Below are positions 8,101 through 25,595 of a stretch of 44,417 bases of DNA, in pieces. Every line of letters starts with the position of its first letter. The stretch's first letter is position 1. This DNA comes from Bdellovibrionales bacterium. Its GTDB lineage: Bacteria > Bdellovibrionota > Bdellovibrionia > Bdellovibrionales > UBA1609. The stretch covers positions 1-44,417 of the forward strand of contig JAHBUX010000020.1 of NCBI GenBank assembly GCA_019637855.1, given 5' to 3'. The notes under the pieces were generated by a model, which did no database searches, had not been told where the DNA came from, and worked only from the letters and a program-made list of their open reading frames with translations. A program made the position numbers and the translations under genes.

Positions 8101-11100
8101 GATCACCGGTGACACCGCCGCTTCGGCGTGGTGTGCACTCGCGCAAGATGCGGCTTTAGCCGCGCCCGCGCAGCCGGCGAGCTCCAGTACCTGCTGGGTG
8201 CTGACACGGCCGGTGTCGGTGCCTCTGGGCGCGACCGGCAGCCGCAAAGTCTATGTGTTCTTGCGGGACGCGGCCATGAACATCTCGAGTCCGGGTCATG
8301 CCACTATCGCGCTGACCACGACATCGCCGGGTGATCCAAGTTTGGCTCTCACTCACGCGGTGACGGGGTTGTCGAACTATGCGCGTACTACGGCTTTGAG
8401 TCTTGCGATCACGGCCGACAGCACGGCCACTCGTTGGTGCGTGAGTGAAACGCAGTCTGTGAAGCCCTTGCTGGGGACGTCCACCTGCGCCGGTGGCTCG
8501 GGTTCATCCAGCGGCTGGCACACGACGCGTCCGACATCCTTCACTCTTTCGAGTGGCGATGGTTTAAAGCGCGTGTATGTGTGGGTTGCGGATGCAAGTA
8601 ACAACACCAATGACAATGCGATTTCGCAGACAATCACTTTGGACACCCAGCCTCCCGGTTCCTACACCGTCACCGGTTTAACAGGCGCCTCGGATATCAC
8701 CCCGGATGCGTGGTTGGGTACGACCGTTATTCCAACTGTCAGCTGGGCCGCCGCCAGTGGCGCTTCAAGCTACACGGTGGAGATCAAAAACGCCACCGGC
8801 AGCGCGACGGTTTGTGCGGCTGAAACCACTGCGGCCACCACTTACAATTTCTCTGGCTGCAATCTGGTCGATGGGACTTCGTACCGCGTGTACTTGAGCG
8901 CTGCGGATGAGGCGCAAAATACCGCGACGGCCAGCAACTCTCCTTTTACCTTTGTGGTGAAACTGACGCCGCCCGGTGCATTCAGCATTTCGGGCGTGAC
9001 CGGATCACAAGACACCACCGCGGATCAGTGGGGCGGAAGCTCACTACCCACAGTTTCTTGGACGGCCTCAGCGAGCGTAAACTCCTACATCGTGCGCATC
9101 TTAGCCAATGACGGCGTCACGGTGATGTGCCCGCAACAGGTCAAGAGCGCAGGTACATTGTCGCACGAGTATTCGACCACGGGCTGTTCGGCGTTGACTG
9201 ACAACACCCTCTATCAAGTCGAAGTGGTGGCGCAAGACGTGGCTGGAAATATTCAAACGGCCTCAAATAATTTGTTTTTATTCCGCACAGATTTAACCGC
9301 GCCCAATGTGAGCATCTCGGGCAACCCGGCGGCGCAAGCCATCACCGCCGCGGCGAATTTCACTTTCTCGGGCAGCGACAACATCTCCGGCATTGCGGCT
9401 ATGCAGTGCAAGCTGGACTCCGGTAGCTTTGCGGCTTGCGACACCCTTACCACGCATGCCTATTCAGTGGCCGATGGCAGCCATAGTTTTACCGTGCGCG
9501 CGGCAGACAAGGTTGGCCTTACGCAGACGGCGACATATAGTTGGCAGGTCGATACGGTTTTGCCGAATGCATTTACGATCACGGGCGCGACCGGACCCAC
9601 CGACAGTGTGGTGGATGGCCAATTGCAAAACGACACCACCATGACAGCCAACTGGACGACCTCATCGAACGCGGCGGACTATGAAGTGTCGATCTTGAAC
9701 AGCGATGACAGTGTGGCCTGCGCACCAGTGATCAAAGCGGCGGGCAGCAACAGTCACCATTTCTCTGGCTGCACATTGGTCAATCCGGGTTCTTACAAAA
9801 TCAAAGTTGTCGCGCGTCGCGGTTACGGCACCACCTACGCGCCCACGCCGATGGCTATCAGTGCGGTTAAAGATTCAGTCACTGCGGTGATCACCGCTTC
9901 GAGTGGGACGGTAAGCTCGGGCAGCAGTGTGACCATCACCCTGGTCGGCTATCAGAATTCAGTGCAGATGTCCTCGAACGTTCTGAACCCGAGTTTCGCG
10001 GTGGGCACTGGAACCTCAACCGGCACGTTTGGATCCGTCAGTTACATCGGTTCTGGAACTTACACAGTCAGCTTCACTGGCGTTTTAGCTGGAACGGTCT
10101 CGCAAGTCTCGGCGACCAGCGCCTACCTAAGTGGGTTTACCGGTCAAACACCTGCCAGTATCACTGTGATCCCAGGTGGAGTGAGTGCGGCGGTGTCCAC
10201 GATCACTCTGGATAAATCTACGGTGCAGGCGGACAACGCGGATCTCGTGACCATATCTGTGGGAGTGAAAGATGCGGCTGGGAACCCTATCAAAGGTGCG
10301 ACCATTGGATCGGCTACTTCGGGAGGTCTTTCGACAGGTGCGTTTTCAAGTTTCACTGAAACTCCGGCCAACTCAGGAACATACGTTGGCACTTTCTTAG
10401 GTCACACGTCGGGGACGGCCACAAGTCTGCAGATCACAGCGGATGGAACTTTGCTGAACGCCCATCCTACGATTCAGGTTTTGCCCGGACCTCCGGTGAA
10501 GGTCTCGGCCACGGGGCCTGCTAATATCAGCACGCACCAGTGTTCGGGACCTTACACGGTCACGCTGCGCGATCACTGGAACAATTTGGCCTCGGCACTG
10601 TCAAACGTGCGCTTGGATTTCGGCGGCCTGACCCTCGGCAATTTCTCGCTGGCGACCGACTGTGCAACATCTGCCGATAGAGCGGATATCTTCCTGGGCG
10701 GTTCAACAGCTCCGCCCGTTTATGTTATGCCGCGCGCCCCAAGCGTCAGTGCCTCTTTCACTTTTGAAGATCATGCGCATGTTCTGGCCACAGGAGCGGT
10801 GACAGTCACGGTCAATGGGACCTTGGCTTGGTTGGGAACATCGGGTCAGCTCAATTGGGGACCGGCGATAGGCTTGACCACCAAGTCCAGCCTCTATGGT
10901 TTACAGGAGCCGCGCGGTATTTGGATTAACACTTCAACTAATACTATGTACATCGCGGACACCTCGAACCATCGTATCGTGCGCTACAACATGACTACCA
11001 AAGCGCAGACTGGATGGATCGGTCGAGTGGATTCGACGAACGGCATCTCCTGCCCCTCGACTGCGGCTACGGGTGCTGCAGCCCCGGGATGGTGCACAGG

Positions 11101-13828
11101 GGGATCTTCTCAGGTCTCCGCCGGCACGAACTGGGATGGCATGTTTAACAATCCGACGGAGATCACAGGGGATGGCACGTACCTTTACATCAGCGACGCC
11201 TCCAATCATCGCATTGCACGCGTGCAGGAGAGCACCGGCGAATGGAAGGGTTGGTATGGTCGCATCAGTGTGGCCACGAGCATGACATGCGTGGGCGGCG
11301 GCGCGGCGGTGGCCGCGTCAGCGACGCCCAACTGGTGTTATGCGGGCACATCGGCGGCGGCGACAGGCACCAATTGGGATGGCATGTTCAATCTGGGCAC
11401 CAGTGCGACGCTACGCTCATTCTATGATGCACCCACCGCAAGCAATTTGATTTTGGTGATCGATAACGGCAACCATCGCGTCGTCCGCTTACGCGTCAAC
11501 TCGTCCGATGTGATTTGGGAGGGCTGGGCGGGACGTTCCGCTTCCACCGGGTTGACAGACGGAGAGAACTCCTCGGGCTGTTCCGGCGTGGGCATTGGTG
11601 ATGCGACGACCGGTTGGTGTCGGGGCGGAAATTCACAGGCGGCACCTGTGGCGAGCACTCCGACCGTGAGCAATTACGACAATATGTTCAACAACCCGCG
11701 GGGTCTGGCGATTATTCCGGGCACTCCGTCCATGGCTTACTTCGGAGATTTGACCAACGGCCGCTTTGTCGAACTCAACGTCACGACGGGAAAGACGAAT
11801 GCTTGGGCTGGCCGCCCAACCAATCATTTCCCCGGATCAGGCGGCACCAACTGCGGCACTTACAATACGGACACAGGGTGGTGCACGGGCGGTGTTCCCA
11901 TCTACAACGCCTACTGCTATCCGAGTTGCGGCGGTTCGAATACGGCCAATCGTAACACTTACGCCTCCAACCTGATCGCGCTGGATACTGACGGCACGTA
12001 TTTGTACGGCACTTTCTCGGCTACGAACCTTTACGCCATTTATCGGTTTCCACTTTCGTCTCCGTTTGCACCTTCCACCAATATCCGTTGGGTGGGACGG
12101 ATTAACGGCACTCCCACATTGGGAGCAGGTTGTTCGACAACTCCGCTCGGTTTCCCAACGCCTGGATGGTGTGGTGGCGGCACTTCGCGGATTGGCTATG
12201 CGGACGGACAGTTCAGTCAGCCGTGGGCGCTGTCCATAAACAATAACAATGGTTTGATATACACTGTGGACCGCAACAACTCCAAAGTGCAGATGCACGA
12301 TCTCACCACCGGTGAATCCATGGGCTTTATCGCCGCGCAGGCCAACGCTTCGCCCGCCACTTGGTCCACCACGTACGTTCCGGGATTGCAGGGAAATATC
12401 AATGTCCCCGGAGAAGACTTAAGTTTTGCTACGGGTTACAGCGGAGGGACCGCGGTCACAGCCATGTGGGGCATAACCAGCGATGGTACGAATTTGTTTG
12501 TTTCTGACACTGGCAACTACCGTGTTAAGCGTTATATCGCGGCGACAGGACAGTTCAAAGGTTGGTATGGTCGTACGCAAGTCGTACCGACTGGTGAAGA
12601 TGATGCTTGCACTTCGATCACGGGCGGCGCTGTCACTCCGACCTGGTGTTTTGGCGGTTCTTCGCAAAGTCCGAACACCGCCGGTACGGGAGAGTTGAAC
12701 TCGCCGCGCGGCCTTGCGACCGACAACAACTATCTCTACATTATGGATACGACCTATCATCGTATTGTACGCATCGCTCGCAACAGCGGCGGATTTGCCG
12801 GCTGGTTGGGGCGCACTGGCGCGACTCCAGGAGCTATGACCGGTTTTGATGGCCGTGGAGACGTGAACTGTCCAAACGCCGCCGGCAGCGCGTTCACGGG
12901 TGCTTGGTGTGCGGCAGGAAACACCTCGGCTTCTAGCAATGGCAATGGCGAAATGAACAATCCGCGCGGTATTGCGATCGACAAGGACAATGGCTACATC
13001 TTCGTGGCTGACACTAGCGCTCATCGCGTGAGTATGTACGGTACTTCCGGTCAGCACTTAGGATGGCTGGGGCGTCCCAGCACAGTGCCGGGGACGGCAG
13101 GCCCCACAACCGGTATGGCTGACACCACATGCTCCTCGCCGGCTCTGACTACGTCGTTAACGACGACCAACTGGTGTACGGGTGGAGCCTCGCAGTCGGG
13201 CAACTACACGGCGATTGCGTTTGGCGGCTTCAATACACCCTCTGGAGTTTCGTACGCCAATGGTGAGATCTATGTGGCCGACACGTCCAACAATAAGATT
13301 CACAAGTTCACCTCGTTGACTGGAGTTTACAAGGGTTGGATCGGTCGAACGATGGCAACTAAGCCCATTGGTGAAGGACCGGGTTCGACGTTGCCTGCCG
13401 GTGTCTGTACCACGGCACTGACCGCGCAAAATGAAACGCCCGGTTGGTGTATTGGTGGGGCAGCTCAGGTTTCAGGAGCCGGTATCTACGACAATTCCTT
13501 TAGTGGCCCCACTAGCGTTTGGGCCGATCCTAGCGGAACTTATTTTTATGTGGTGGATGCGGGCAATGAACGCGTAACCAGACATGAGAAATTAACTGGG
13601 AAATTCGCTGGCTGGCGTGGCGTGGCGTCTGTGGTGCCCACGGACGGTGACACCGGCTGTACAACGATGGCGGCAGGCGATCCCACCCCTGGTTGGTGTA
13701 AGGGCGGAGTTTCAGCCTCCAGCCGTAAGTTAGGTGGCTTCTATATTCCGGTCGCGATTACGGGCGATGCCAATTTCATCTATGTGACCGACGCGTTCAA
13801 TAACCGTGTCGTCGCTTTGCCCAAGTAG
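2177..13828 (+). CDS. Giant repeat lipoprotein with Cys-containing A/B repeats and NHL-type blades
   Basis: This 3883-residue protein begins with a hydrophobic signal and the lipobox LNAC, so Cys29 is the probable lipid anchor. An in-frame TGA directly precedes the ATG, and GAGAAG 8 bases upstream acts as ribosome binding site, so the start is firm. After an Ig-like segment (about 40-140) come 19 alternating repeats (about 160-2160). Next are FN3-like modules (about 2160-2570), bacterial Ig-like modules (about 2570-2880) and about 12 NHL-type blades (about 2885-3883) that could form two six-bladed propellers. It is likely a surface-exposed rod with a binding head, for example for prey or substrate attachment, but this is inferred from architecture only. 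Its length is far above the usual NHL protein. The 3' end overlaps a convergent gene by 99 bases. Confidence 0.9.
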   Translation: MLNVRALRHYVFATRAIFFAAAFIFLNACTGGSSSQESISSGGLGLKLVKMSGDNQVTTPSASWSQPLVVRVVEGNTGLPSIPVTFADTSATGASVVNTSVLTDSEGYARTSAVAPAASNLSVKITASLADNSSVVFNLETRSFPDTPVITLRDPVTLSTAYAQQTNLDLSITTVPTAVRWCVSESMSSRPNDGSQNCVGGSGPFSGWSTSKPTSFNLSSVNGAKSLYVWVADQYNQVNLFPSSATIFLDTMAPSVPIVTLSDVNSGSITDTSDQAVNFTVSNDGDASYWCIFPQMWNDAMPATPTRNAGCWVNSKPTLLNLVALGLNRVSVWTKDLAGNVSPGAGQQFINYTTLTIADPAFTLKDQNTASQVYSRGVTVDIGITGDSTATKWCVSEQQSSRPTNSLQACTGGAGLLNGWSNSRPTTFTLSGGDGLKTVYVWVANALNNTNGNIVSRTITVDTVAPAIPLADLTDPNTGQPNFTNQSTVNLSITGDTDAVAWCKYEKSSLAAPPSLPAFNDVCWVGARPTTVALGATGARRVYIYTKDSAQNVSPAPAVAMITYTTTAPASPVGVLRDPETNSTTLAKNQTVNLSINSPAGTVRWCVSETQASAPATGTSTCNGGVGASSGWHTSAPTTFALSSGDGAKTVYLWVADGANNVNATTATAAITLDLTPPALPVVTITDPNSGSPDETNQIIATLGITGDTDAVRWCRIVQDVVDPAPATPNLTDVCWAVSRPNTVVLEQPGTRKLYLFTRDAAGNVGTPGAAEIVYSTGVPSDPTIILSDINTSLTTYANQLSVGLNISNDTGAVKWCVSETQSTRPLLGTAACSGGLGSANGWSTAKPTTWTLSASDGVKRVYVWTANTANSVNNNPASGGLTLDRVKPSTPAVALRDPNTNSTSDTNQSTVSLAISGEDADVTAWCVLEQAAATAAPSVPSWNNACWTTSKPVTATLSATGSRKVYVYFRDLAYNVSLSAGQATMAYSTSAPNTPSLAVTDGTTGSTTYARQVAVAVSITGDGGAVKWCVSESQSTQPTLGTSNCVGGAGSANGWHTTRPTSINISSGDAAKTIYLWTANAANNTSSAVVSDAITLDTLPPSVPFVTLSDSLTSSTTVTNQANAGLSIQFDTDAVKWCVIEQSFATAVPAQPLFNNGCWVGTRPTAQTLGATGIRRVFVYTQDVAMNVTPAAAVAQINYTTTPPTDPALTLTNSTTGSTTVTRDLAVTPSITSPTGTIKWCLSETQTTRPTSGSAACNGGAGPSSGWYTSLPNSFTLSGGDAVKSVYIWVADTNNNVNANVATGTITLDTDPPAMPTVVMSDPNNGSTTQTNQFTVDLAITVDTDAVRWCPIMQAAAAAAPSSPALNDSCWRTSRPTQQLVDATGSRKLYVFTRDSAANVGSPGVATIDYSILPPADPSLTVADATTALSDFAKGQSLNIAITADTGAVKWCVSEAQSTRPPLGTATCNGGSGASNGWYTSRPTTFALSSGEALKRVYVWTSDVYNNVNANPTSASITLDTSPPAAPAVSLLDPNTGSSTQTNQSGVNLNIGATADALAWCVIEQASASAAPAAPAFNNGCFHLSKPTTQTLGALGGRTVYVYTRDRAYNVASSAGTAVINYSTTAPSTATLALSDGVTGSTAYVRQSATTIAITGDTGAVRWCVSEAQTTRPTLGTSSCSGGAGPNNGWYTTRPTSFAVSSGEGAKSIYVWTADLANNTSGTAGTDSITLDTVTPAIPTVSLSDPNTNGTAFTNQSTVNLTITQDTDAVAWCVMEQASASAAPTAPLFDNGCWVGSRPTTTTLAAQGNRRVYVYTKDAAANVSLASSIASIAYSTSAPSDPVLVLSNSVTGSRTYTGDRNVAVSINNPVGAVRWCISETQATRPATGTATCTGGAGPSSGWYDSMPSTFQLSTGDATKTVYIWVADNANNTNANASSTSIILLQVPPDPPTVALNDPNTNSSAYTNQSSVNMAITGDTAASAWCALAQDAALAAPAQPASSSTCWVLTRPVSVPLGATGSRKVYVFLRDAAMNISSPGHATIALTTTSPGDPSLALTHAVTGLSNYARTTALSLAITADSTATRWCVSETQSVKPLLGTSTCAGGSGSSSGWHTTRPTSFTLSSGDGLKRVYVWVADASNNTNDNAISQTITLDTQPPGSYTVTGLTGASDITPDAWLGTTVIPTVSWAAASGASSYTVEIKNATGSATVCAAETTAATTYNFSGCNLVDGTSYRVYLSAADEAQNTATASNSPFTFVVKLTPPGAFSISGVTGSQDTTADQWGGSSLPTVSWTASASVNSYIVRILANDGVTVMCPQQVKSAGTLSHEYSTTGCSALTDNTLYQVEVVAQDVAGNIQTASNNLFLFRTDLTAPNVSISGNPAAQAITAAANFTFSGSDNISGIAAMQCKLDSGSFAACDTLTTHAYSVADGSHSFTVRAADKVGLTQTATYSWQVDTVLPNAFTITGATGPTDSVVDGQLQNDTTMTANWTTSSNAADYEVSILNSDDSVACAPVIKAAGSNSHHFSGCTLVNPGSYKIKVVARRGYGTTYAPTPMAISAVKDSVTAVITASSGTVSSGSSVTITLVGYQNSVQMSSNVLNPSFAVGTGTSTGTFGSVSYIGSGTYTVSFTGVLAGTVSQVSATSAYLSGFTGQTPASITVIPGGVSAAVSTITLDKSTVQADNADLVTISVGVKDAAGNPIKGATIGSATSGGLSTGAFSSFTETPANSGTYVGTFLGHTSGTATSLQITADGTLLNAHPTIQVLPGPPVKVSATGPANISTHQCSGPYTVTLRDHWNNLASALSNVRLDFGGLTLGNFSLATDCATSADRADIFLGGSTAPPVYVMPRAPSVSASFTFEDHAHVLATGAVTVTVNGTLAWLGTSGQLNWGPAIGLTTKSSLYGLQEPRGIWINTSTNTMYIADTSNHRIVRYNMTTKAQTGWIGRVDSTNGISCPSTAATGAAAPGWCTGGSSQVSAGTNWDGMFNNPTEITGDGTYLYISDASNHRIARVQESTGEWKGWYGRISVATSMTCVGGGAAVAASATPNWCYAGTSAAATGTNWDGMFNLGTSATLRSFYDAPTASNLILVIDNGNHRVVRLRVNSSDVIWEGWAGRSASTGLTDGENSSGCSGVGIGDATTGWCRGGNSQAAPVASTPTVSNYDNMFNNPRGLAIIPGTPSMAYFGDLTNGRFVELNVTTGKTNAWAGRPTNHFPGSGGTNCGTYNTDTGWCTGGVPIYNAYCYPSCGGSNTANRNTYASNLIALDTDGTYLYGTFSATNLYAIYRFPLSSPFAPSTNIRWVGRINGTPTLGAGCSTTPLGFPTPGWCGGGTSRIGYADGQFSQPWALSINNNNGLIYTVDRNNSKVQMHDLTTGESMGFIAAQANASPATWSTTYVPGLQGNINVPGEDLSFATGYSGGTAVTAMWGITSDGTNLFVSDTGNYRVKRYIAATGQFKGWYGRTQVVPTGEDDACTSITGGAVTPTWCFGGSSQSPNTAGTGELNSPRGLATDNNYLYIMDTTYHRIVRIARNSGGFAGWLGRTGATPGAMTGFDGRGDVNCPNAAGSAFTGAWCAAGNTSASSNGNGEMNNPRGIAIDKDNGYIFVADTSAHRVSMYGTSGQHLGWLGRPSTVPGTAGPTTGMADTTCSSPALTTSLTTTNWCTGGASQSGNYTAIAFGGFNTPSGVSYANGEIYVADTSNNKIHKFTSLTGVYKGWIGRTMATKPIGEGPGSTLPAGVCTTALTAQNETPGWCIGGAAQVSGAGIYDNSFSGPTSVWADPSGTYFYVVDAGNERVTRHEKLTGKFAGWRGVASVVPTDGDTGCTTMAAGDPTPGWCKGGVSASSRKLGGFYIPVAITGDANFIYVTDAFNNRVVALPK
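2650..8655 (+). repeat. Coding array of 10 A and 9 B repeats in strict alternation
   Basis: I count ten A repeats (core WCVSETQ, then C-x-GG, GW, P-T, YVWVAD, NN) and nine B repeats (core AWCVxEQ, a Pro/Ala stretch, a second Cys followed by Trp, TGxRKVYVYTRD). They alternate A-B-A-B and end on A. The A-repeat WCVSE codons recur about every 636 bases, that is 212 residues per A-B pair. Each repeat keeps two cysteines, so 38 in all, which suggests one disulfide per repeat. DNA copies are well diverged in codon use, so the array is old and not a recent slippage product. Confidence 0.9.
10830..13825 (+). other. NHL-type beta-propeller region of the giant lipoprotein
   Basis: About 12 blades follow the pattern NNPRGIAID - YIFVADTSxHRV - GWLGR. 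Between most blades an inserted loop carries two cysteines, the second in a block of the form P-x-WC-x-GG-x-S. The first six and last six blades could each close a propeller. Blades 3 to 6 are more divergent than 8 to 11. The extra Cys loops are not part of the standard NHL repeat. Confidence 0.8.
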
Positions 13829-14492: not shown

Positions 14493-15083
14493 ATGATGAG
14501 AACTCAAATTTATTTCCTTTTGGTAATATTGAGCGCGACCACTTCAGGTTGCGCCAGTCATCTCTATTTAAAATCCGAACCCGCAGGCGCTCGTGTCGAA
14601 TTGATCTCAGCGCAAAATCAAGCTGTGACTCCTCTGGGTGAAACGCCTCTGACGATGACCAAGACACAAATCACGCAGAAGCAAGTGCGCGGCCCCTATC
14701 TGATCCGCATTTCTAAAGATGGATTGTTGCCCAAAGAGATTCTGATCGCCTCACTGACGGGTATTGATGTGGATGTGAACGTGCAATTGCAAGCCAGCGC
14801 TTCCACTGCACGTTTGAACGATTTGGTGAACGAGCTTTTCGATGCCCAGAACATGGCGCAAAAAGGCGATGGTCCTTCAGCTCTGGAAAAATTAAACCAG
14901 CTGCAGAAGAAACATCCCGATATCGCTGCGGTCTACGAAATGCGCGGTTCCATCTATATGGTGCGTGGCGATTATGCCAGCGCGGCCCGCGATTTTGGCG
15001 TGGCCGTGAATATTGATCCACAAAACCGCGAACTGCGCGTGCTGCTCGAGTCCGCTCAACGTAAGGCGGGATTGAAGCGATGA
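14493..15083 (+). CDS. PEGA/TPR lipoprotein, first gene of the motor-like operon
   Basis: The 196-residue product has a signal peptide ending in TSGC, with Cys20 as the lipid site. Residues about 23-75 look like a PEGA domain (LKSEPAGARVEL, later GETPLTM and RISKDGLLPKE), a small beta fold common in surface proteins. Residues about 105-190 form one or two TPR-like helical pairs (MRGSIYMVRGDYASAARDF, then AVNIDPQN). TPR lipoproteins usually hold envelope machines together; GltE of the Myxococcus gliding machine is one functional analogue, not a claimed homologue. The gene overlaps the next by 4 bases (ATGA), which implies coupling. Two adjacent ATG codons (14493, 14496) are possible starts. 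Confidence 0.85.
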   Translation: MMRTQIYFLLVILSATTSGCASHLYLKSEPAGARVELISAQNQAVTPLGETPLTMTKTQITQKQVRGPYLIRISKDGLLPKEILIASLTGIDVDVNVQLQASASTARLNDLVNELFDAQNMAQKGDGPSALEKLNQLQKKHPDIAAVYEMRGSIYMVRGDYASAARDFGVAVNIDPQNRELRVLLESAQRKAGLKR

Positions 15084-16825
15084 AACGCCTCCTTGTAGTC
15101 TCCGCATTTGCCTTATTCGCCACCGGCGCGGTTGCCGGAGTGGTGGATCTGTCGCAACTGCAAACCCAGTTTGAGCAAAAGGTAATCGACCGTTTGCGTT
15201 TGGGTCTGGATCCGATTCTAGGTAAAGATCAATACAGCATAGCGGTGCGTGCGGACTATCGAGCCCCCAATGAGCAGCTGCGTCCTGTGGACACCTACTT
15301 TCCGAAGCTGGGAATAGCGGCGCCTACGCCTACCTCTGAGTCGACCCATGTGATTCAGTTCGAGCGTTGGGTGCAAACTCTTGAAGTCGATGTCTCGCGT
15401 TCGGAAGACGTGCAGGGCGTGGATGATGAAGCATTGCGGACGCGCGTGGGTTTGATCCTGAAATCGTTTGGTTCTTTTAAGCTTAAAGTGAACGTGACAT
15501 CCTTTAAACCGGCCGCTCATGTAGTGACCACGCGCAACTGGCGCGATCATATTCCGTGGACGCCGTTGGCGATTGTATTGGGCGCTCTGTCGATCGCATC
15601 TATTCTGTTCCTGGCCGCTCGCTCCCTGGCGTCGGCGACGACGACGGCCGCCGCCACGACCGCAGCGGCGACGAACGGTGCGAATTCCGCCCGCAATGAA
15701 GATTTCATTCCAGACTTCAAACCGGAAGAGAAGAAGCCGGCCGATGCTGAGTTGCCGGAAGGCGAGCTTAAGCGCGAGGGTCTGGGTAAATGGCATGAGT
15801 GGTTGAAAGAAGATGCCGCTTCGGCGCGCGAATTTATCGAACGCCTGGCGCGTTCGGAAGCGCCAGAAGAGCGTGTTTTGCAATCCTATTTGTTTCAACA
15901 TTCGGACTTGGCCTTGCTGCGCCCGTTGCTGAAGAAGGTGAGCAAAGACTGTCTGGCCGCCATTAAGCAGTCGCTATCGCAGGCTCTAGGCATGCCTGAG
16001 TTGGCGGCGGCCGACCGTATGCTTTCCCAATACATCACGCAGTACTATGTTGATGAGTCGTTGGACTCAGACAACTTGATTAAAACCGTGCACGATCTCT
16101 CGATCGAGGAGTGCGTGGTGGCGGCTGAAGCCGAGCCGGCTGTGTTGGCCGTGTTTATGCGTTGTTTGTCGACACCGCACGTGGAGCGCATCGTCGCTCA
16201 GTTGTCACAAGAGCAATTCCAATCGTTTTTGGATAAAGTCGATCAGTTGTCTCCTCCGGAAATGACGAAGCTTGCTACCCGGGCTCGTACCGTCGCTCTC
16301 GAGCGCCGCAAGGTGAGTGAAGAGCGTCAGGCTTTACCGTTGTCTAAATGGATGGTTGTGGCCAGCCATTTGGATGGTGAAAAAGAGAGAGCCTTCTACA
16401 CTTCGGCTGCCGGAAAACTACCCCCGGCGGATCTGGTTCGTTTTGCCGCCGAAAATTTTCCGCACTTCTTGGCGGCCCGCTTGCCCGATCATATTTTGAA
16501 GGCGGTTTTGAATTCATACACTTTTGAAGAGCGCGCCGAACTGATTTTTGTGTGTGCTGAAGAAGACCGCCGCCGCTATTTGAGCTTCTACGAGAAAGAA
16601 GCGCGCGTGAACGATCTTTTGACGGTCGAATTGGAGCAGATCGCCAGCGAGCCTCAGCGGGAGCGCCGTTTGGGCCAGCGCAAAGCCGAGATGAACCGTG
16701 ATTTCCTAAACCGCCTGCGTAAGTTTGTGCGTTCGACGCCGGAGATTCAGTCCGCCGCCGAAGACTTGCTGCGCGGTTGGGTTGAGGAGCAGAAGGGATC
16801 AAGCGTTGACGCTGAGGCGGCTTAA
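15080..16825 (+). CDS. FliF-end/FliG-like inner-membrane protein
   Basis: The product has 581 residues: a signal peptide (1-19), a periplasmic region (20-158), one membrane segment (about 161-183, TPLAIVLGALSIASILFLAA), an Ala/Thr and Lys/Glu/Pro linker (184-235) and a helical cytoplasmic region (236-581). The periplasmic start, VIDRLRLGLDPILGKDQYSI, resembles the ring-building segment near the end of FliF/YscJ proteins, which likewise precedes the second FliF membrane helix. The C-terminal half has stacked helices of FliG type: VLAVFMRCLSTPHVERIVAQ then LSPPEMTKLATRAR resembles the FliG middle domain. I see no exact EHPQ motif or torque helix, so FliG homology is suggestive only. It is followed directly by a barrel gene, motA and motB. 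I infer a rotor- or scaffold-like partner of that stator. Confidence 0.6.
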   Translation: MKRLLVVSAFALFATGAVAGVVDLSQLQTQFEQKVIDRLRLGLDPILGKDQYSIAVRADYRAPNEQLRPVDTYFPKLGIAAPTPTSESTHVIQFERWVQTLEVDVSRSEDVQGVDDEALRTRVGLILKSFGSFKLKVNVTSFKPAAHVVTTRNWRDHIPWTPLAIVLGALSIASILFLAARSLASATTTAAATTAAATNGANSARNEDFIPDFKPEEKKPADAELPEGELKREGLGKWHEWLKEDAASAREFIERLARSEAPEERVLQSYLFQHSDLALLRPLLKKVSKDCLAAIKQSLSQALGMPELAAADRMLSQYITQYYVDESLDSDNLIKTVHDLSIEECVVAAEAEPAVLAVFMRCLSTPHVERIVAQLSQEQFQSFLDKVDQLSPPEMTKLATRARTVALERRKVSEERQALPLSKWMVVASHLDGEKERAFYTSAAGKLPPADLVRFAAENFPHFLAARLPDHILKAVLNSYTFEERAELIFVCAEEDRRRYLSFYEKEARVNDLLTVELEQIASEPQRERRLGQRKAEMNRDFLNRLRKFVRSTPEIQSAAEDLLRGWVEEQKGSSVDAEAA

Positions 16826-17405
16826 CCTTCTCTTCTTCACTCTCGCGTTCTGTGCGCTGGAAGCGCATGCGGCCGATCCGCATGATATCTTCGTACGCAC
16901 CGGTGTGATTGCGGGAACGTACACGGGCAAGGATTTGTCGTCGGGAAGCTACTCGGCCAATATCAATGCCGAGGGTGAGCTGTGGCTGTATCGCAACCCG
17001 AGTGAGGCCATCGTGGCCCGTGTGGTGTTGGCGAATCAAAGCAGCTTGGGCCGCACGCGCTACTTTGCGGCAGGTGGTGGGCAGCGCTACTTTTTGTTTG
17101 CCGACGGAATGTCGACCGAGCAGCAGTTTGACGGCGACTACATTCGCGTTCGTCCGCACTCGTCGGTGTACATCGGTTGGGATTTGGGTTTGGGACAATA
17201 TCTTGTGTTGCCCTTTGGCTCCGTTCTCTCGGCCTATTCGACCACGGTCGATGTAGGCGGAGTGGTGGGCGTGCGCAAGGGTATTAACGATCGCTTTAGT
17301 GTGGATGGCGTTGTCGGCTTCACGTACTCGTCGAGCGTGCTGTCGTCGACCAGTGTGACCGCCAGCACAGTGCGCGTTTTAGTTGGCGTTGGATATACGT
17401 TTTAG
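16806..17405 (+). CDS. Outer-membrane beta-barrel protein, TTG start
   Basis: I start this gene at TTG 16806, 7 bases after AGAAGGGA. That gives a 199-residue protein with a standard signal peptide (MTLRRLNLLFFTLAFCALEAHA). An upstream in-frame start at 16725 would add a basic, Cys-containing stretch that destroys the signal peptide. The mature part is strand after strand of alternating aromatic and small residues, ending in VRVLVGVGYTF with a C-terminal Phe, the classic outer-membrane insertion signal. The size fits an eight-stranded barrel of the OmpW/OmpA type. It overlaps the upstream gene by 20 bases and lies 11 bases before motA. It could connect the stator's peptidoglycan-binding part or the TPR lipoprotein to the outer membrane; this is inference. 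Confidence 0.8.
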   Translation: MTLRRLNLLFFTLAFCALEAHAADPHDIFVRTGVIAGTYTGKDLSSGSYSANINAEGELWLYRNPSEAIVARVVLANQSSLGRTRYFAAGGGQRYFLFADGMSTEQQFDGDYIRVRPHSSVYIGWDLGLGQYLVLPFGSVLSAYSTTVDVGGVVGVRKGINDRFSVDGVVGFTYSSSVLSSTSVTASTVRVLVGVGYTF

Positions 17406-17416
17406 GGGAGAGGCCT

Positions 17417-18226
17417 ATGCAGTTCGCAACTTTGATAGCCTTCATCTTCGGTGCCGTCGTTTTTGGCGCAGCGGCGCTGACGTCGGCAAAGAATCCTTTG
17501 ATCTTCCTCAACGCGCACGCCGCTCTTGTCGTGTTCGGTGGAACATTTGCCGCCGCCGCCATCTCGTTCAGCTTTCAACGTCTATGGACTTTGTCTAAAG
17601 TTCTGGTGCGTCGTTTGCTGCGTGGTCACGGCGCCTTCGATGCGCAGAAGATGATCGAAGAGATCATGTGGCTGTCCGAAGTCTATCGTAACCGCCCTGA
17701 TCAGCTAGCGACGCAATTGACTAATATCAAAGATCCTTTTTTGAAAGAGGCGATGGAGCTGGTCACTGACAACTACCTGTCGCACGAAGATCTCTTGCGC
17801 ATTATGATGACTCGTACGGCTTCAATCTTTCAGCGTTACAATGAAGAGGCTTTGAAGTTCAAAGCGCTGGCCAAGTTCCCTCCGGCCTTCGGTCTTATGG
17901 GGGCGGTAATGGGTATGATCGGGATTATGGCCGAATTGGGCGCTTCCGGTGCAAACTCGTCGGTGGGACCTTCGCTGGCGTTGGCGCTGATCGGAACGCT
18001 TTACGGTGTGGCTCTCGCCAACTTGGTGATTTTGCCTTTGGCCGAGAATCTGCACGATTCCGCACGTGAGATTCGCTCGAAGAACATGATGATCACCGAA
18101 GCGGTCGGTTTGATGTTGGAGAAGAAAAATCCGATTCTGATGGCCGAAGATCTGAACTCTTTCCTTCTTGCGCACGAGCGCCTTGACTGGCGCACGTCCA
18201 AGAAGCGCGCGCGGCCTGCGGCATGA
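17417..18226 (+). CDS. motA: MotA-type stator subunit
   Basis: MotA forms the inner-membrane proton or sodium channel with MotB and drives rotation through its cytoplasmic loop. This 269-residue protein has the family layout: two N-terminal membrane helices (about 4-23 and 33-52), a charged loop (about 60-150), then TM3 starting KFPPAFGLMGAVMGMIGIM (about 153-171) and TM4 (about 186-208). The proline at the start of TM3 matches the conserved channel proline. GGGAGAGG precedes the ATG by a few bases. It overlaps motB by 4 bases. The gene order (FliG-like gene, barrel, motA, motB) suggests a partner other than the standard flagellar rotor, but recruitment to flagella is not excluded. Confidence 0.93.
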   Translation: MQFATLIAFIFGAVVFGAAALTSAKNPLIFLNAHAALVVFGGTFAAAAISFSFQRLWTLSKVLVRRLLRGHGAFDAQKMIEEIMWLSEVYRNRPDQLATQLTNIKDPFLKEAMELVTDNYLSHEDLLRIMMTRTASIFQRYNEEALKFKALAKFPPAFGLMGAVMGMIGIMAELGASGANSSVGPSLALALIGTLYGVALANLVILPLAENLHDSAREIRSKNMMITEAVGLMLEKKNPILMAEDLNSFLLAHERLDWRTSKKRARPAA

Positions 18227-18993
18227 AGTCCATTGATCAAAAGTTTCGCGAACAGTTGGACCGTTTTCAGCCGACAGTGGTGGCGGAAGATGAAGAGACC
18301 ATTTGGTTGCTCTCCTATGCCGATTTGATGACTCTGTTGTTCACTTTCTTTGTCATGCTCTATTCGTCCGCGCAAATGGATGAGGGCAAAACGCTGCGCA
18401 AGACGCTTGCGGCCTATATGCAAGGTACTGGCGGCTCCAATGAGGCTGCGACTGCCAATGCCGGTCCTGGTCCCGGCGGTGACGATATGGAAAGCATCCG
18501 TAGCTCACTGAGTGAGCGCATCGAGACCGAGCGTTTGCTCAAAGACGTGCGCATGGAGATTAAAAATCAGGGTTTGAATATCACGTTCTCTTCAAACCTC
18601 CTGTTTGATACTGGATCTGCGGAGTTGCGCCTCGATTCTATGGAGCCGCTCAATAAAGTGATAGGCACTTTGAAAGAAAAGGCTCCACAAATGAAGGTGA
18701 GAGTTGAAGGTCACACCGACGACGTACCTATCCGCGCAGGCCGACCTTACAAGAACAACTGGGAGCTCAGTGGTGCTCGCGCCGCGCATATTGTGAGTCT
18801 GTTTGAAAAGCTAGGCTACCCGGCCGAGAATCTGATTGCCGTGGGTTATGGCTCCAGTCGTCCTGTGGCGGCTAACCGCAAGCCTGCCGGTGGCGTGGAC
18901 CAAGATGGGCGTCGCCGCAATCGTCGCGTGGTTCTAACTGTGTTCCAGGTGGCGCCTGAGGCGAAAGCCGGCACCACCGAAGATCCAAAATAG
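18223..18993 (+). CDS. motB: MotB-type stator subunit with OmpA-like peptidoglycan-binding domain
   Basis: The 256-residue product has a short cytoplasmic start and one membrane helix (about 27-49) containing SYADLMTLLFTFFVML; Asp34 is the expected ion-binding residue. After a Gly-rich linker (about 70-95) comes a C-terminal OmpA/MotB domain with GHTDDVPI, NNWELSGARA and GYGSSRPVA, which bind peptidoglycan. The presence of Asp (not its neighbours) does not decide proton versus sodium use. It is the last gene of the operon and ends 2 bases before the stop codon of the convergent DUF4340-like gene, so there is no room for a separate intergenic terminator. Confidence 0.93.
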   Translation: MKSIDQKFREQLDRFQPTVVAEDEETIWLLSYADLMTLLFTFFVMLYSSAQMDEGKTLRKTLAAYMQGTGGSNEAATANAGPGPGGDDMESIRSSLSERIETERLLKDVRMEIKNQGLNITFSSNLLFDTGSAELRLDSMEPLNKVIGTLKEKAPQMKVRVEGHTDDVPIRAGRPYKNNWELSGARAAHIVSLFEKLGYPAENLIAVGYGSSRPVAANRKPAGGVDQDGRRRNRRVVLTVFQVAPEAKAGTTEDPK

Positions 18994-18995
18994 AG

Positions 18996-19817
18996 CTAGT
19001 GCGGAACTTGTGCCAGCTCATTTAATAACTGTGTGAAAGCCGGCGATTCGACGCCTCTTAGACTCCCACTCGGCATCCACACCTCTTCGCGTTGACGCAA
19101 TTCCAGCTCGGAGCCCTTCGCAAAGGTCACACGAAAGCTAGCATCGTTCATTGAGGGAGCGGGCGGCATTAGGCGCGCGTCGCGAAAGCGAGTTACCTTT
19201 ACCTGGCAGGCTTTGCTCAGCCATTTCTCAACGGTGGTGGCATCGATTGGGCGGCGAGCTTTGTTGTTGTCGGTCCACAGCCATTGACCTTTTGTATTTT
19301 CCAGCGCGAAGTCGCCGTCTGCGATCTGCACGCGCATCTTGACCGGTCGGTCTTCGCACCAGTTCCACTGGCGCGCTTCAAAAGCAAACTCACCTTCACT
19401 GAAAATGCGGCGAGTGTCTTGATCGGCTTTGAAGCCATGGCCTTTGTGCGTGCCTTCGGTCCATACGAAATGCTCCGAACCGAACGTACCTTTCCAAATG
19501 TTGCCGGGGCCGAAGTTAAGTTCGAGGGTTACCAGGCTGTCCGATGGAGCACTCATTTTCTCAATGGCCAACGTACCGAGCGCATTCAGTTTTTCTTGCA
19601 CGGCTGCACTGTCGACAGCGGGAGCCCACGGTTGATTGCGATTAGCGCGCGCGAAGGAATGAGTCTGGTCACCGCTCGTCCAGCTGAAGCCGAGAACAGA
19701 GTCGGGATGAAAGACAAAGCCCTCAGCGATTTGATTTTGATGGGTAGGTTTGAGCCACCACAGGCCGATCCCGAGGATCAGCAGCAAAAGAGTCCCAGCC
19801 CCAACGGCCTTACGCAT
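18996..19817 (-). CDS. DUF4340-like single-pass envelope protein
   Basis: The 273-residue product has an N-terminal signal anchor (about 5-22, GAGTLLLLILGIGLWWL) and a strand-rich extracytoplasmic part containing many Trp residues. The pattern 'KLNALGTLAIEKM' followed by short strands and 'WLSKACQVKVTRF' resembles DUF4340 proteins, which are often found next to Gld-type ABC transporter genes; no such transporter is here. GAGGGAAAT precedes the ATG at 19817. It is a monocistronic gene convergent with motB. The family call is tentative and the function unknown. Confidence 0.6.
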   Translation of the reverse strand: MRKAVGAGTLLLLILGIGLWWLKPTHQNQIAEGFVFHPDSVLGFSWTSGDQTHSFARANRNQPWAPAVDSAAVQEKLNALGTLAIEKMSAPSDSLVTLELNFGPGNIWKGTFGSEHFVWTEGTHKGHGFKADQDTRRIFSEGEFAFEARQWNWCEDRPVKMRVQIADGDFALENTKGQWLWTDNNKARRPIDATTVEKWLSKACQVKVTRFRDARLMPPAPSMNDASFRVTFAKGSELELRQREEVWMPSGSLRGVESPAFTQLLNELAQVPH

Positions 19818-21182: not shown

Positions 21183-21959
21183 TCAGATCTGCCAAATTTC
21201 TTTAAACTTTCGATGCAGACCTTTGTCTTCATACGGGTCCACAGCTGCATTTAGGTGTTCCGCAGAGTATCCGCTGTGGATCGACTCGACTTGCACCGTT
21301 CTCGCCTCTTCATTCACTTGAAAACCCACTCGCCAAGTTCGATAGGCTAGGCGATAGCCATTATCGTGTGGCTCCACGCGCTTGCGCTTGTGGTCGAGAG
21401 GATCGAACTCCAACTGGCCTTTGATAAATCCCTGCAACTGCGAAACACCGTGTTCTTCAAGCCAACGCATTTGTTGCAAAGCTTGGGAATTGAACTCCAC
21501 CAGCCAGCGTTCCGACTCGATATTCTCTAGCCACCCCACCCGCGAGTCAGGAAACGCATCGGCGTAGGGAATATACGGTTTAATATCCAGCACCGGTGTT
21601 CCATCCAAAAGATCATGCCCCGCCACAACCACGCGCAGGCCATCGACCTTCAGCAAATGCACACAGCTCAGGCCAAGAGCGTTCGGACGATAGGGCGCGC
21701 GAGTGGCAAACACACCTCGTTTTACGCGTGGTCCGCGTGGAGGCATTACCTTCGGCTTCCACTCATTGTTATGATGGAACTGATAGACGATCCAAATGCG
21801 TTCAAAACCTTCCAAATCCTCAAGGGCTTGTTCAAAACCCCGATCTGGATGCAGACGAATCTCGCCCAACGAATTTTTCTCATCGACCGCAGCTTGCCGT
21901 CTGGCTTCGTACGGATATTTGCTCTCGGTGTGGAAAAAACCGATCGGCTCCAGCGTCAT
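21183..21959 (-). CDS. trmO: TrmO-family tRNA (N6-threonylcarbamoyladenosine 37) N6-methyltransferase
   Basis: TrmO proteins methylate t6A37 in some tRNAs using SAM. The N-terminal half carries the family signatures: [12 protein letters not shown] at the start, FERIWIVYQFHH (about 52-63), FATRAPYRPNALGLS (about 84-98) and DLLDGTPVLDIKPYIPYAD (about 116-134), ending the TsaA-like barrel at about residue 140. The remaining 115 residues match the smaller C-terminal region of longer TrmO proteins (about 235 in E. coli; 258 here). Its ATG overlaps the stop of the SpoU methyltransferase gene by 4 bases. It is last in a MetG-containing operon that thus carries one tRNA synthetase and two likely RNA methyltransferases. 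Confidence 0.9.
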   Translation of the reverse strand: MTLEPIGFFHTESKYPYEARRQAAVDEKNSLGEIRLHPDRGFEQALEDLEGFERIWIVYQFHHNNEWKPKVMPPRGPRVKRGVFATRAPYRPNALGLSCVHLLKVDGLRVVVAGHDLLDGTPVLDIKPYIPYADAFPDSRVGWLENIESERWLVEFNSQALQQMRWLEEHGVSQLQGFIKGQLEFDPLDHKRKRVEPHDNGYRLAYRTWRVGFQVNEEARTVQVESIHSGYSAEHLNAAVDPYEDKGLHRKFKEIWQI

Positions 21960-22762
21960 AGCTTGGCCTCATATTGACGAAGCCATTCAAAGGCGGTGAT
22001 GCCGAAGGCTACGCCCACGTTCATTGAATTTTTAATTCCGCGCACGGGAATACGGCAAACTGCATCCACAGCTTGTAGAGTGTCGCCTTCCAAGCCAAAG
22101 CGTTCATTGCCTAAAACGAAGGCTAGCGGCGCCGCCGTAAACTTGAAGTCGTGCAGCGAGACCGCATTCGCTGCAGTCTCCAAAGCCACGATCTTATAGC
22201 CCTCTTTGCGCAGTTCTTCACACGCTGTGCGTGTACGGTCCACTCGCCGCCACGGCACCATTGCCGCGGTCCCCATCGCTGTACGCATGGTTTTGTCGTC
22301 GTCTGGACCTGGCGTGTAACCGCAAAGAAGGATTTCGGAGATACCCAAACACTCCGAGGTGCGAAACAGGGCGCCAACGTTGAAAGCAGAACGTAGGTTT
22401 TCAACAATCAGTTTCAGAGGAACCCGATCGGCCACTTTGTCGCCGCCGTCGCCTTCTTCCACTAAGAACTCATCGTCCCGCAAAGCTCGGCTGGACAGCC
22501 GTTCGAAGGGCACAAGGCAAGCAAAGAAATGCGCCAAGGAGACCTGATCGTGTAGATGGGCTGCCGCCTTGGTCAAACGGCTCAGGCTCTCCGTCTCGGC
22601 GTCCGTACAAGCGGCGATTTCACGTTTCAATTCTTGATAGCGAGGATTTGAACTCTGATCTACATCGCTATGGCGATTACCGCTAGGCCACGTCAGTTCG
22701 ATCTCGCGCGCGAGTTGCACAATGCGTGCAAGCTTCGTCTGATCGCGCGGTCCCAGACTCAT
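21956..22762 (-). CDS. SpoU/TrmH-family RNA 2'-O-methyltransferase
   Basis: SpoU enzymes use a trefoil knot to bind SAM and methylate a ribose 2'-OH in tRNA or rRNA. All three motifs are present: [16 protein letters not shown] (about 136-151), [12 protein letters not shown] (about 210-221) and [18 protein letters not shown] (about 233-250). Motif 3 has NSMNVG in place of the usual SLNVS. An N-terminal region of about 130 residues is helical and charged and may bind RNA; it is longer than in TrmL. The substrate cannot be set from sequence. It overlaps metG and trmO by 4 bases on either side, so it is translationally coupled to both. Confidence 0.88.
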
Positions 22763-24759
22763 TTCACTTTTTGGCCAGGTTGGGCGCCGCTATCGGGCGA
22801 CAAGATAAACAGATCTTTGCCGCCGGGGCCAGCCGCCAGAACCATGCCTTCTGAAAGGCCAAACTTCATCTGACGCGGCTTCAAGTTGGCCACCACCACA
22901 GTCAGACGTCCAACCAAACCGGCGGGCGAATAGGCCGACTTGATGCCGGCGATGATTTGGCGCTCTTGGCCTTCACCTAAATCCACTTTCAGACGCAAGA
23001 GCTTATCGGCGCCTTCGACCTCTTCAGCAGAAACGATTTTGGCGATACGCAAATCCACTTTGCTAAAGTCATCGATTTCAATCATACCGCCGGCCTCACT
23101 TTTCGCAGGAGCCGCGGTTTTGGCGTCAGTCACTTTACTCTCCTCAACTATTTGCTGAATTTTAGGCATCTCGATACGCACGGCCAGATGTTCGTACTCG
23201 CCGATCTTGTGGTCAGTCAGCGTGCGTGCGACGTCGGCCCACATATAAGGTTTTTCGTTCATCAGTTGGGTCACGCGGTCCGCGTATTTCGGTAACACGG
23301 GCGCTAGATAGATGGTCAGCGTGCGGAACACATTTAAAATCGCCGTCAGCACTTCACGCGTGGCTTCAGGATCCGTATTGATCAGCTTCCACGGCGCGCG
23401 CTCGTCAAAATAGCGATTGGCTTCATCCGCCAAAGCTCGCACTTCCGTCAACGCCTTACCAAAATCCCGATTCTCATAGTGTTGCGCAATCTCTTCCGAC
23501 TTGCCCTGCGCGGTCTGCACCAGCTTCAACGCTTCACCAGATAGCGTGCCCATGCGACCTTCCAGTCGCTTGCTCAGCATCTGGGCCCCGCGCGAGCCCA
23601 GATTGGTGATCTTACCGATCAGGTCTGAGTTCACGCGGCTAGCGAAGTCTTCCAGGTTCAAATCCACATCGTGCAAGTTGCCGTTGATTTTACAAGCGTA
23701 GTAGTAGCGCAAGTACATCGGATCGAGATGCTCAAGATATTTGCGCGCCGTGATCGAAGTGCCCTTGGACTTGGACATCTTCTCGCCATTGACTGTCAGC
23801 ATGCCGTGCACAAACACTTCGCGTGGCAGGTTGTAGCCCGCGGTTTTCAGCATCGCGGGCCAAAACAAGCAGTGGAAATAGACAATGTCTTTGCCGATGA
23901 AGTGATAGTTCTCTGTTTGCGGATCTTGCCAGTAGTCTTTGAGATCGCGTCCGTGCTTTTTGCACCAGTTCCAGGTTGAGGAAACATATCCAATGGGGGC
24001 GTCCACCCAAACGTAAAAGAATTTGTCTTTTAGGCCTGGAATCTCAAAACCAAAATAGGGCTTATCGCGCGAGATGTCCCAGTCGCGCAGCTCGCCGGCC
24101 GTCCACTCACTGAGTTTATTGGCCACTTCGCTCGAAGTGTGCTCGGGCACCCAAGTTTTCAAAAAGTCGCGAAAGTGATCGAGCTTGAAAAACACATGGC
24201 TCGACTTGCGCTGCACTGGCGTGGTTCCGCAAATGGTGCAACGGGCGTCTTTCATCTCCACCGGAGAATAGGTCGAGCCGCACACATCACAAGAGTCGCC
24301 ATATTGATCTTTCGAAGCACATACCGGGCAAGTGCCTTTGACGAAACGATCGGGTAGAAACATTTTGTCGTGTTCACAGTAGAGCTGCTCGATGTCGCGG
24401 ATTTCCGTGTGACCGGCGTCGCGCATTTTGGCGTAAAACGCCTCAGCCAGTTGTTTGTTCTCCGGATCATTGGTCGAGCCGAAGTGGTCAAACTCGATGC
24501 CGAAGTCAGAGAAGTCGCGCACGTGCTCAGTTTTGCTTTGAGCAATGTAAGCTTCGGGGGTCACACCGAGCTCACGCGCCTTCACCATGATGGGCGTACC
24601 GTGCGTATCGTCGGCGCAGATGTACAAGCACTCATGACCGCGCAACTTTTGAAAGCGCGTCCAAAAGTCGACTTGCAGATACTCCACCAGATGGCCGATG
24701 TGAATGGGCCCGTTGGCGTAGGGCAGTGCGCCCGTGGCGACGATCCGACGTTTTTGCAA
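22759..24759 (-). CDS. metG: Methionyl-tRNA synthetase with C-terminal tRNA-binding domain
   Basis: MetG charges tRNA-Met. The product shows the class I HIGH motif ([10 protein letters not shown], His20 in this numbering), a zinc knuckle with four CxxC-type pairs (CPVC, CDVC, CTIC, about 140-170), the KMSKSKG loop (about 335) and the C-terminal EMAP/OB domain (about 555-666: [14 protein letters not shown], later [12 protein letters not shown]). I prefer the TTG at 24759, preceded by GGAGG 4 bases away, because it gives the usual MetG start just before [14 protein letters not shown]. An upstream TTG at 24840 would add 27 atypical residues with no good ribosome binding site. Length is 666 residues, normal for the long bacterial form. 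It overlaps the SpoU gene by 4 bases. Confidence 0.95.
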
Positions 24760-24848
24760 GCGGCCTCCAACGTAAAAAGAATCCACGTTAATCGAATTGG
24801 CGTGGAGCGGCAAGTTCACCCACTCTATGCGCCGCACCAAAACCCACT

Positions 24849-25595
24849 TCAGCGTGGGGCCGTCACCCGCTCAAGAAACTCGAGTGACCGTACTCCAAAC
24901 CAGCTGAAGCTTTCCCCATCGACGAAGGCGTGCGGGAATTCTAGCTCAGCCAAGTCCTGCCTTCTTTTCAAAAAGGGATAAGGCTCGGTTGAAAGCAAAA
25001 GAAGGGTTTCCTGCGGATCGAACTGGTTAAGATCCACTTCGGGGTACTTTTTAGGAAACAGCGGGAGTTGCACGCCCACCGCGTGCAGCACGCTCCCGAT
25101 AAAGGTATCGCGGCTAACGCACATCCAGGGATTCTTCCAGATCAGGTAGAGAACATGTTTGGGAAAGCGTGTGGGCTTCAAACCCCACTCAACAACACCT
25201 GGAAAGCCGTCGACGTTGTCAGCTAAGCGCGTCCTCGGTCGCGTGACAATGGACCGCCAGCGTTCGGCAAGTCCATTCAAGCTCTCGTTCTGAACAACCT
25301 GCGAAAGTCGTTCAAGAGTCGACGGCATATCTTCGATGTGCGTGACATGCGTAGCATGCCAAGGAATGGAGGTCTGCTCGGCCATGAATTTGGGATTTTC
25401 TTCTTGATCGAGAAGGATCAAATCGGGCTGTAGCTGAGTGATCTTCTCCCACTTCCAGTCTTTAGTGCCACCGACAATGGGCACGTCTTTCACTTGCTCC
25501 CGCGGGTGAAGGCAAAAGCGGGTCCTGCCCACAACATGGACGCCGGCACGAAGCAGTGTTTCGGTCCAACTGGGAACTAAAGAGACAACTCTCAC
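24849..25595 (-). CDS. BtuF-like substrate-binding-fold protein without signal peptide
   Basis: The 248-residue product matches the helical-backbone metal/cobalamin receptor fold: [17 protein letters not shown] at the start, [10 protein letters not shown], then [32 protein letters not shown] (two segments), and a long linking helix with SRLSQVV-type pattern (about 95-120). Such proteins normally bind B12 or iron-chelates for an ABC transporter, but this one has no signal peptide. Cytoplasmic BtuF-like proteins of unknown role are known in many bacteria. It uses a GTG start that overlaps the hydrolase stop (GTGA) and sits 89 bases before metG. Ligand and role cannot be set from sequence. Confidence 0.75.

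Follow-up and report, generated by a model that had tools for sequence, protein, structure and literature searches.

A FliF–FliG fusion strain of Salmonella was motile and chemotaxis-defective, and the fusion formed rings, according to the sections of the report consulted (PMC6079021). For the stator–rotor interface of the Escherichia coli flagellum, residue contacts including the R90–D289 and E98–R281 pairs have been described (PMC12505986, relevant part). Neither a natural FliF–FliG fusion nor a non-flagellar FliG motor was found in the open-access literature searched. Here, we analysed a five-gene operon (positions 14493–18993, + strand) in a 44,417-nucleotide stretch of DNA from a Bdellovibrionales bacterium (contig JAHBUX010000020.1), hereafter referred to as the window. 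According to the list of open reading frames (ORFs) of the window, the operon encodes a lipoprotein, a protein designated FG, an outer-membrane β-barrel, MotA and MotB. Judging by sequence profiles and a predicted structure, FG is very probably a natural FliF–FliG fusion, and it is a putative rotor ring subunit. The operon as a whole likely encodes a stand-alone rotary motor of the flagellar type that is not a flagellum, with MotAB as the stator and a ring of FG as the rotor, coupled to the outer membrane.

The FG protein (581 residues, 15080–16825, + strand) comprises a signal peptide (residues ∼3–25), one RBM3-like periplasmic ring domain (residues ∼20–145, 15137–15514), a single transmembrane (TM) helix (residues ∼158–185, 15551–15634) and a FliG-like cytoplasmic part with N, M and C domains (residues ∼260–566, 15857–16777). 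The signal peptide and the TM helix, which are separated by ∼135 residues, were located by hydropathy, and the helix was also present in the AlphaFold model. Profile–profile comparison (hhalign) with the proteins of its own phylum aligned FG columns 355–650 with FliG 22–337 (P 4.2e-10) and FG columns 49–354 with FliF (P 2.9e-6), the two matches being collinear and abutting. The best P among 24 unrelated neighbourhood families used as a control was 0.049; 25 families had been built, and the type II FG family, which was among them, was set aside. When the FG alignment was split, the periplasmic part without the TM part matched FliF (P 1e-4) and gave no FliG match, while the C-terminal part matched FliG (P 1.5e-10) and gave no FliF match. 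A hidden Markov model (HMM) of 27 FGs, run against ∼3,300 ORFs, recovered all four flagellar FliGs among them (E 1.5e-13 to 8.8e-13), and the FliG HMM recovered the type II proteins (best 8e-14) as well as a relative from the genus Bdellovibrio (L191_1, 1.6e-10). The FliF match begins at FliF residue 233 and follows the FliF order of RBM3 and then TM2; RBM1, RBM2 and TM1 are absent from FG.

The AlphaFold (AF2) model of FG, built from 29 sequences (predicted local distance difference test score, pLDDT, 78.5; predicted template modelling score 0.36), showed a helix-strand-strand-helix-strand unit of RBM topology, a long TM helix and ∼20 helices forming a helical repeat part. A Foldseek search of the PDB placed FliG 3hjl first (E 3.2e-4); the top five matches were either FliG or chains from C-rings that have the length of FliG, with FliF at ranks 6 and 8. 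For model residues 17–146, the best eleven rows of VIA-align were all FliF S-rings (Z 10.6–11.9, root-mean-square deviation (rmsd) 2.8–3.7, 94–100 residues aligned), with 8z5v_A at Z 11.9, rmsd 3.3 and 100 aligned. Residues 260–566 aligned with FliG at Z ∼10 and rmsd 13–18 over up to 288 residues (8vib_G: Z 10.5, rmsd 13.5, 282 aligned). The earlier note, made from the letters of the window, had proposed a FliF-like periplasmic and a FliG-like cytoplasmic part, and both were recovered: model residues 18–145 align with FliF RBM3 and 260–566 with full-length FliG, and the profiles agree. The charges of the FliG torque helix are also retained, as the R281 site is basic (K/R) in 22/27 FGs and the D289 site acidic (E/D) in 26/27; in the window these residues are R509 and E517.

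Some relatives of FG passed the Pfam FliG cut-offs, namely in genomes G050 and G053 and in the type II loci, Bdellovibrio included. The FG of locus L214 exceeded all three (FliG_C 40.2, FliG_M 32.0 and FliG_N 25.5 bits), and those of L191, L106, L112 and L116 exceeded the FliG_C and FliG_M cut-offs. In the Pfam scan, the FG of the window did not reach the FliG_N, FliG_M or FliG_C cut-offs. The window FG is therefore a distant homologue rather than a Pfam-defined member, with homology across the N, M and C domains recognised by profile and fold. By interpolation of locus tags over the genome length, the L214 protein presumably lies near Bd3020/Bd3021; a search on Bd3014–Bd3019 returned no result concerning Bdellovibrio.

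The stator genes overlap by four bases (motA, 17417–18226; motB, 18223–18993; both + strand). MotA passed its Pfam cut-off (MotA_ExbB, 69.4 bits), and MotB, which the earlier note had called a true MotB, exceeded those for MotB_plug (50.6 bits) and OmpA (60.1 bits), the latter being the peptidoglycan-binding type. The pair therefore belongs with flagellar MotAB by its Pfam families, plug and OmpA domain. The Asp motif was present in 79/81 MotBs of the family and appears in the window as D34 in SYADLMT, which we take to be the ion-binding residue. A tight grouping of this MotAB with the flagellar pair had been named beforehand as the outcome that would speak against a separate system. No such grouping was observed for MotA: 76 system MotAs grouped together (support 0.897) to the exclusion of the flagellar and MotA3-type MotAs, which formed a clade of 9 (support 0.873). 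The window MotA lies at a distance of 1.5–1.7 from its eight nearest relatives and of 4.9–5.9 from the flagellar and MotA3-type MotAs. The R90 site is basic in 41/46 system MotAs and kept in the window, and P173 and P222 are present in 46/46.

The two remaining operon proteins point to the outer membrane. The barrel (199 residues, 16806–17405, + strand) carries a signal peptide and was modelled with eight long strands at pLDDT 90.3; NspA, Ail, OmpA and OmpX were among its best structural matches (E down to 3.9e-7). Its frame is open from 16725, and translation likely begins at TTG 16806, directly before the signal peptide. The lipoprotein (196 residues, 14493–15083, + strand) has a lipobox-like TSGC and weak TPR-like and PEGA-like parts (TPR_2 24.3 and PEGA 12.6 bits, both below the Pfam cut-offs), and is a putative outer-membrane or periplasmic linker. 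In the Pfam scan of the window proteins, neither these two nor FG matched above any cut-off. The ORF coordinates reproduced the spacing described earlier, in which neighbouring genes overlap by 4, 20 and 4 bases and one pair is separated by 11 bases; the 20-base overlap of FG and barrel follows from setting the barrel start at TTG 16806. The earlier suggestion that this stator brings its own rotor partner and an outer-membrane link agrees with the FG fusion and with the barrel model.

The occurrence of the gene set was compared with that of the flagellar core genes. Genomes G029 (97% complete) and G031 (99% complete), of the same family as the window genome, encode FG (E 4.9e-56 and 7.1e-71) and clade MotA (1.3e-95 and 2.5e-101), and profile searches of both genomes detected no FliG_C, FliF or FlhA. 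In each, one contig carries both genes, with MotA ∼23–25 kb away from FG. The more distant G210 (94% complete) has two FG–MotAB loci and no FliG_C or FlhA; FliF appeared there only as a weak PF01514 match, of a kind also seen in G207, G208 and G211, and the two FG proteins of G210 gave no YscJ_FliF match. The gene set can therefore exist without a flagellum and is not confined to genomes that carry the genes of the flagellar export gate and rotor, in line with the earlier idea of a separate motor. In 12 other genomes without FliG/FliF (G002, G005, G006, G012–G015, G030, G032–G035), neither FG nor system MotA was found. G184, which also has no listed FliF, was left out as an 83% complete metagenome-assembled genome (MAG).

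Conservation was assessed in 80 loci, obtained by scanning named genomes with the MotA alignment alone, as MotA is better conserved than FG. All five families occurred together in 26/80 loci, and a further 12/80 held FG with a subset of them, which indicates that the operon grouping is more than chance. With iterated profiles, FG was found in 38 loci, the lipoprotein in 49 (including 32 of the 38 FG loci) and the barrel in 31. The commonest gene order was lipoprotein–FG–barrel–MotA–MotB, and the loci are labelled Bdellovibrionales, Oligoflexia and Bacteriovoracaceae, with a few MAGs labelled otherwise. FG is single-copy in its own genome and shares 11–21% identity with its counterparts across the phylum loci; a search of genome contigs with its sequence alone returned 11 stretches and no relative. 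Relatives were detected in 8/47 genomes of the family by sequence (own genome included), in 13/143 genomes of the class by alignment and, by hand count, in ∼106/368 genomes of the phylum at E ≤1e-20. The total of 311/368 for that search is not an FG count, since its weaker matches include flagellar FliG. Type II loci carry a longer FG-like protein (∼750–830 residues), which matched FliG (P 2.8e-10) and not FliF (P 0.07), and a cyclic-nucleotide-binding gene before MotA.

Further variants and companions of the gene set were noted. In L042 (6121–10491) and L043 (1103–4989), the lipoprotein and FG, with the barrel in L043, stand beside a TolQ-like MotA homologue (240–268 residues) and an OmpA-like partner, with no true MotAB. 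A SpoIIE/HAMP phosphatase gene adjoins FG in L214, a cyclic-nucleotide-binding gene is present in a type II locus and a PilZ gene in G210. The PilZ-domain gene L212:5264–6328 directly follows motB; the genome concerned has neither the flagellar FliG nor FlhA, and the position of the gene suggests that cyclic-di-GMP may control the motor. The neighbours of MotAB in G211 (L231) include three giant ORFs (884, 1568 and 1754 residues) and a gene that is likely related to the PilZ-type gene. A family of membrane proteins of ∼330–370 residues stands beside the system in many genomes (L034:10–1008, L033_10, L035_2, L036_9, L037_5, L039_8, L041_5); the member scanned had no Pfam match, and no copy was recognisable in the window. 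A short cytoplasmic FliG_C paralogue (230–302 residues) that begins like RYKKxGGF recurs in the class (G000:C24:57393–57701, L206:1216–1908, also L207 and L209); its FliG_C domain exceeds the Pfam cut-off, with 52 bits in the window's own genome.

Adjoining the operon, a giant protein of 3883 residues (2177–13828, + strand) has a lipoprotein-like signal and immunoglobulin (Ig)-like and NHL repeats, and is a possible moved surface part, by association only. Among the loci analysed, 15 further ORFs matched it, corresponding to 11 distinct places as four were second copies of the same contigs. Its relatives stand beside the system in G008, G017, G121, G122 and G031, and one is on the G029 contig; none was found in the control loci. 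ORFs of at least 1000 residues numbered 20 in 685.6 kb (43 FG loci) versus 1 in 157.4 kb (12 control loci), for which we estimate P ∼0.08 with ten duplicate loci excluded. At the sequence level, the homology of the giants is the better evidence for their association with the system than these counts.

The following mechanism is proposed. MotA and MotB would form an ion-driven stator, with the OmpA domain of MotB as its anchor in the peptidoglycan. Subunits of FG would assemble into a ring through the RBM3-like periplasmic domain, each crossing the membrane once, and the stator would turn the torque helix of the FliG-like collar in the cytoplasm. The natural fusion would do away with the FliF–FliG joint. 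Given the absence of RBM1/2, the large β-collar, an export gate and a rod, no axle is expected through the ring, and the load is therefore more likely to act on the periplasmic or outer-membrane face, the location of the lipoprotein and the barrel. The periplasmic side of the ring would be available to drive these two proteins in the outer membrane, and through them it may move a surface structure, perhaps the giant Ig-repeat lipoprotein. If this is correct, flagellar rotor and stator parts act as a module without secretion system, rod or filament, which bears on the evolution of the flagellum through a rotor–stator pair free of the export machine. It would also bear on a question described as open in the consulted part of a 2026 review (PMC13104615), namely the identity of the motor, the adhesins and the means of force transmission of Bdellovibrio on surfaces.

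Several observations weigh against a stand-alone rotary motor. The structural match to FliG is a flexible one (rmsd 13–18, helical repeats) and would be weak if taken alone; a fold value of this kind is soft where helices repeat, and the FliG assignment rests on the sequence profiles. The window FG itself had no FliG or FliF match in Pfam, in the PDB phmmer sequence search or in NCBIfam. The E98 site of MotA is acidic in only 7/46 system MotAs (20/46 within one residue) and is Ala in the window, while it is acidic in 9/9 of the flagellar clade. The flagellar R90 and E98 torque interface is thus not present as a whole: the R90–D289 pair is kept and the E98–R281 pair is not, which points to a related but altered interface, and with E98 lost the contact must differ in some respect from that in the flagellum. 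In 22/80 loci, neither FG nor the lipoprotein nor the barrel was recognised in the vicinity of MotA and MotB, and G211, which lacks FliG_C and FlhA, has clade MotAB and no recognised FG. Most FG genomes are flagellated, including that of the window, which encodes FliF, FliG, FlhA and another, canonical MotAB (L186). The rival gliding candidates and the three stator pairs of Bdellovibrio, considered next, add to these points.

As to the job of the motor, a role in gliding or at the surface is a tentative proposal, with surface adhesin movement and prey entry among the candidate roles. The chance is not far below even that the gliding engine of Bdellovibrio is instead an Agl/Glt-like set and that the system motor does other work, such as moving the giant lipoprotein in attachment. 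This concerns the job only and is compatible with a stand-alone motor. Luciano 2011 described four expanded core complexes in Bdellovibrio and favoured Bd0828–0838 (PMC3169522, sections consulted), and the aglQ-like bd1480 and bd3099 rise on surfaces according to the consulted part of PMC9140294; Agl/Glt clusters are rival gliding candidates. On the other side, section 8 of the 2026 review calls the gliding machinery of Bdellovibrio unidentified (PMC13104615). A broader view, in which a stripped flagellar motor (MotAB with a natural FliF–FliG rotor) makes up a phylum-wide class of stand-alone rotary nanomachines that drive giant lipoproteins anchored in the outer membrane and supply the surface motor still missing for Bdellovibrio and related bacteria, appears rather doubtful at this stage.

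We consider it unlikely that FG is an accessory of the flagellar motor, surrounding the flagellum as an additional ring or scaffold, with the system MotAB as one of several exchangeable stators. In favour of this view, beyond the flagellated state of most FG genomes, all three MotAB pairs of B. bacteriovorus, one of which was mapped here to the system, reportedly contribute to the single flagellum, going by the title of a 2011 study by Morehouse. The consulted part of PMC11323537 also describes altered motA2/motB2 expression in fliL mutants; in the same source, however, the FliL protein Bd1076 binds MotB3 and not MotB2. FG and MotA persist in three genomes that have neither FliG nor FlhA, the system MotAs form a separate clade, and FG repeats FliF and FliG functions while adding no scaffold domain, all of which argue against an accessory role. 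A non-rotary role, in which MotAB and FG would be a TolQR/ExbBD-like energy transducer that pulls or gates the lipoprotein and barrel, or an ion-driven sensor with the FliG-like part as a regulatory clamp, accords with the TolQ-like pairs of L042 and L043, the SpoIIE, cyclic-nucleotide-binding and PilZ genes near some loci and the loss of E98, but is very improbable because the RBM3 ring fold and the torque-helix charges, needless for a linear transducer, are kept and MotB retains its plug and peptidoglycan domain.

Downstream of the operon, the window encodes a 273-residue protein with no Pfam match (18996–19817, − strand), whose relative in G105 directly follows motB and shares its strand (L041_11, E 8e-18). 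The region 21956–26494 had been read as a GldAFG-like ABC transporter; this was wrong, as it encodes an rRNA methylase, MetG, a metal receptor-like protein and a BPSS1187-family protein.

Compared with the flagellar motor, the system shares FliF RBM3-TM2-like and FliG-like rotor parts with basic and acidic torque-helix sites, and a MotAB with plug, peptidoglycan domain and the Asp and Pro residues. It differs in that the FliF and FliG parts form one protein without RBM1/2 or the large collar, and in that the operon holds a barrel and a lipoprotein instead of export, rod, hook and filament genes. The EHPQ stretch of FliG, which we take to be FliM-binding, is not kept in the FG alignment. The GldLM/SprB system of Bacteroidota has a 5:2 type rotary stator in common with the proposed motor, as well as a moved surface adhesin if the giant lipoprotein is the load; it is not known to have FliF or FliG parts. 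GldLM further differs in rotating the type IX secretion system, according to the portion of a review consulted. The Salmonella FliF–FliG fusions, engineered or mutant, have the same domain order as FG but contain the whole of FliF and act inside the flagellum, whereas FG is natural, shorter and also found without a flagellum. The Agl/Glt gliding and Nfs machine of Myxococcus likewise has an ion-driven motor in the inner membrane, accompanied by TPR proteins and proteins of the outer membrane. AglRQS is TolQ/TolR-like in the sections of PMC3169522 consulted, and the main text of that paper contains no occurrence of "FliG" or "MotB". The resemblance to Agl/Glt by composition that the earlier note had drawn therefore stands as an analogy and not as membership, as the present system combines a true MotB, with MotB_plug and OmpA domains, and a FliG-like rotor.

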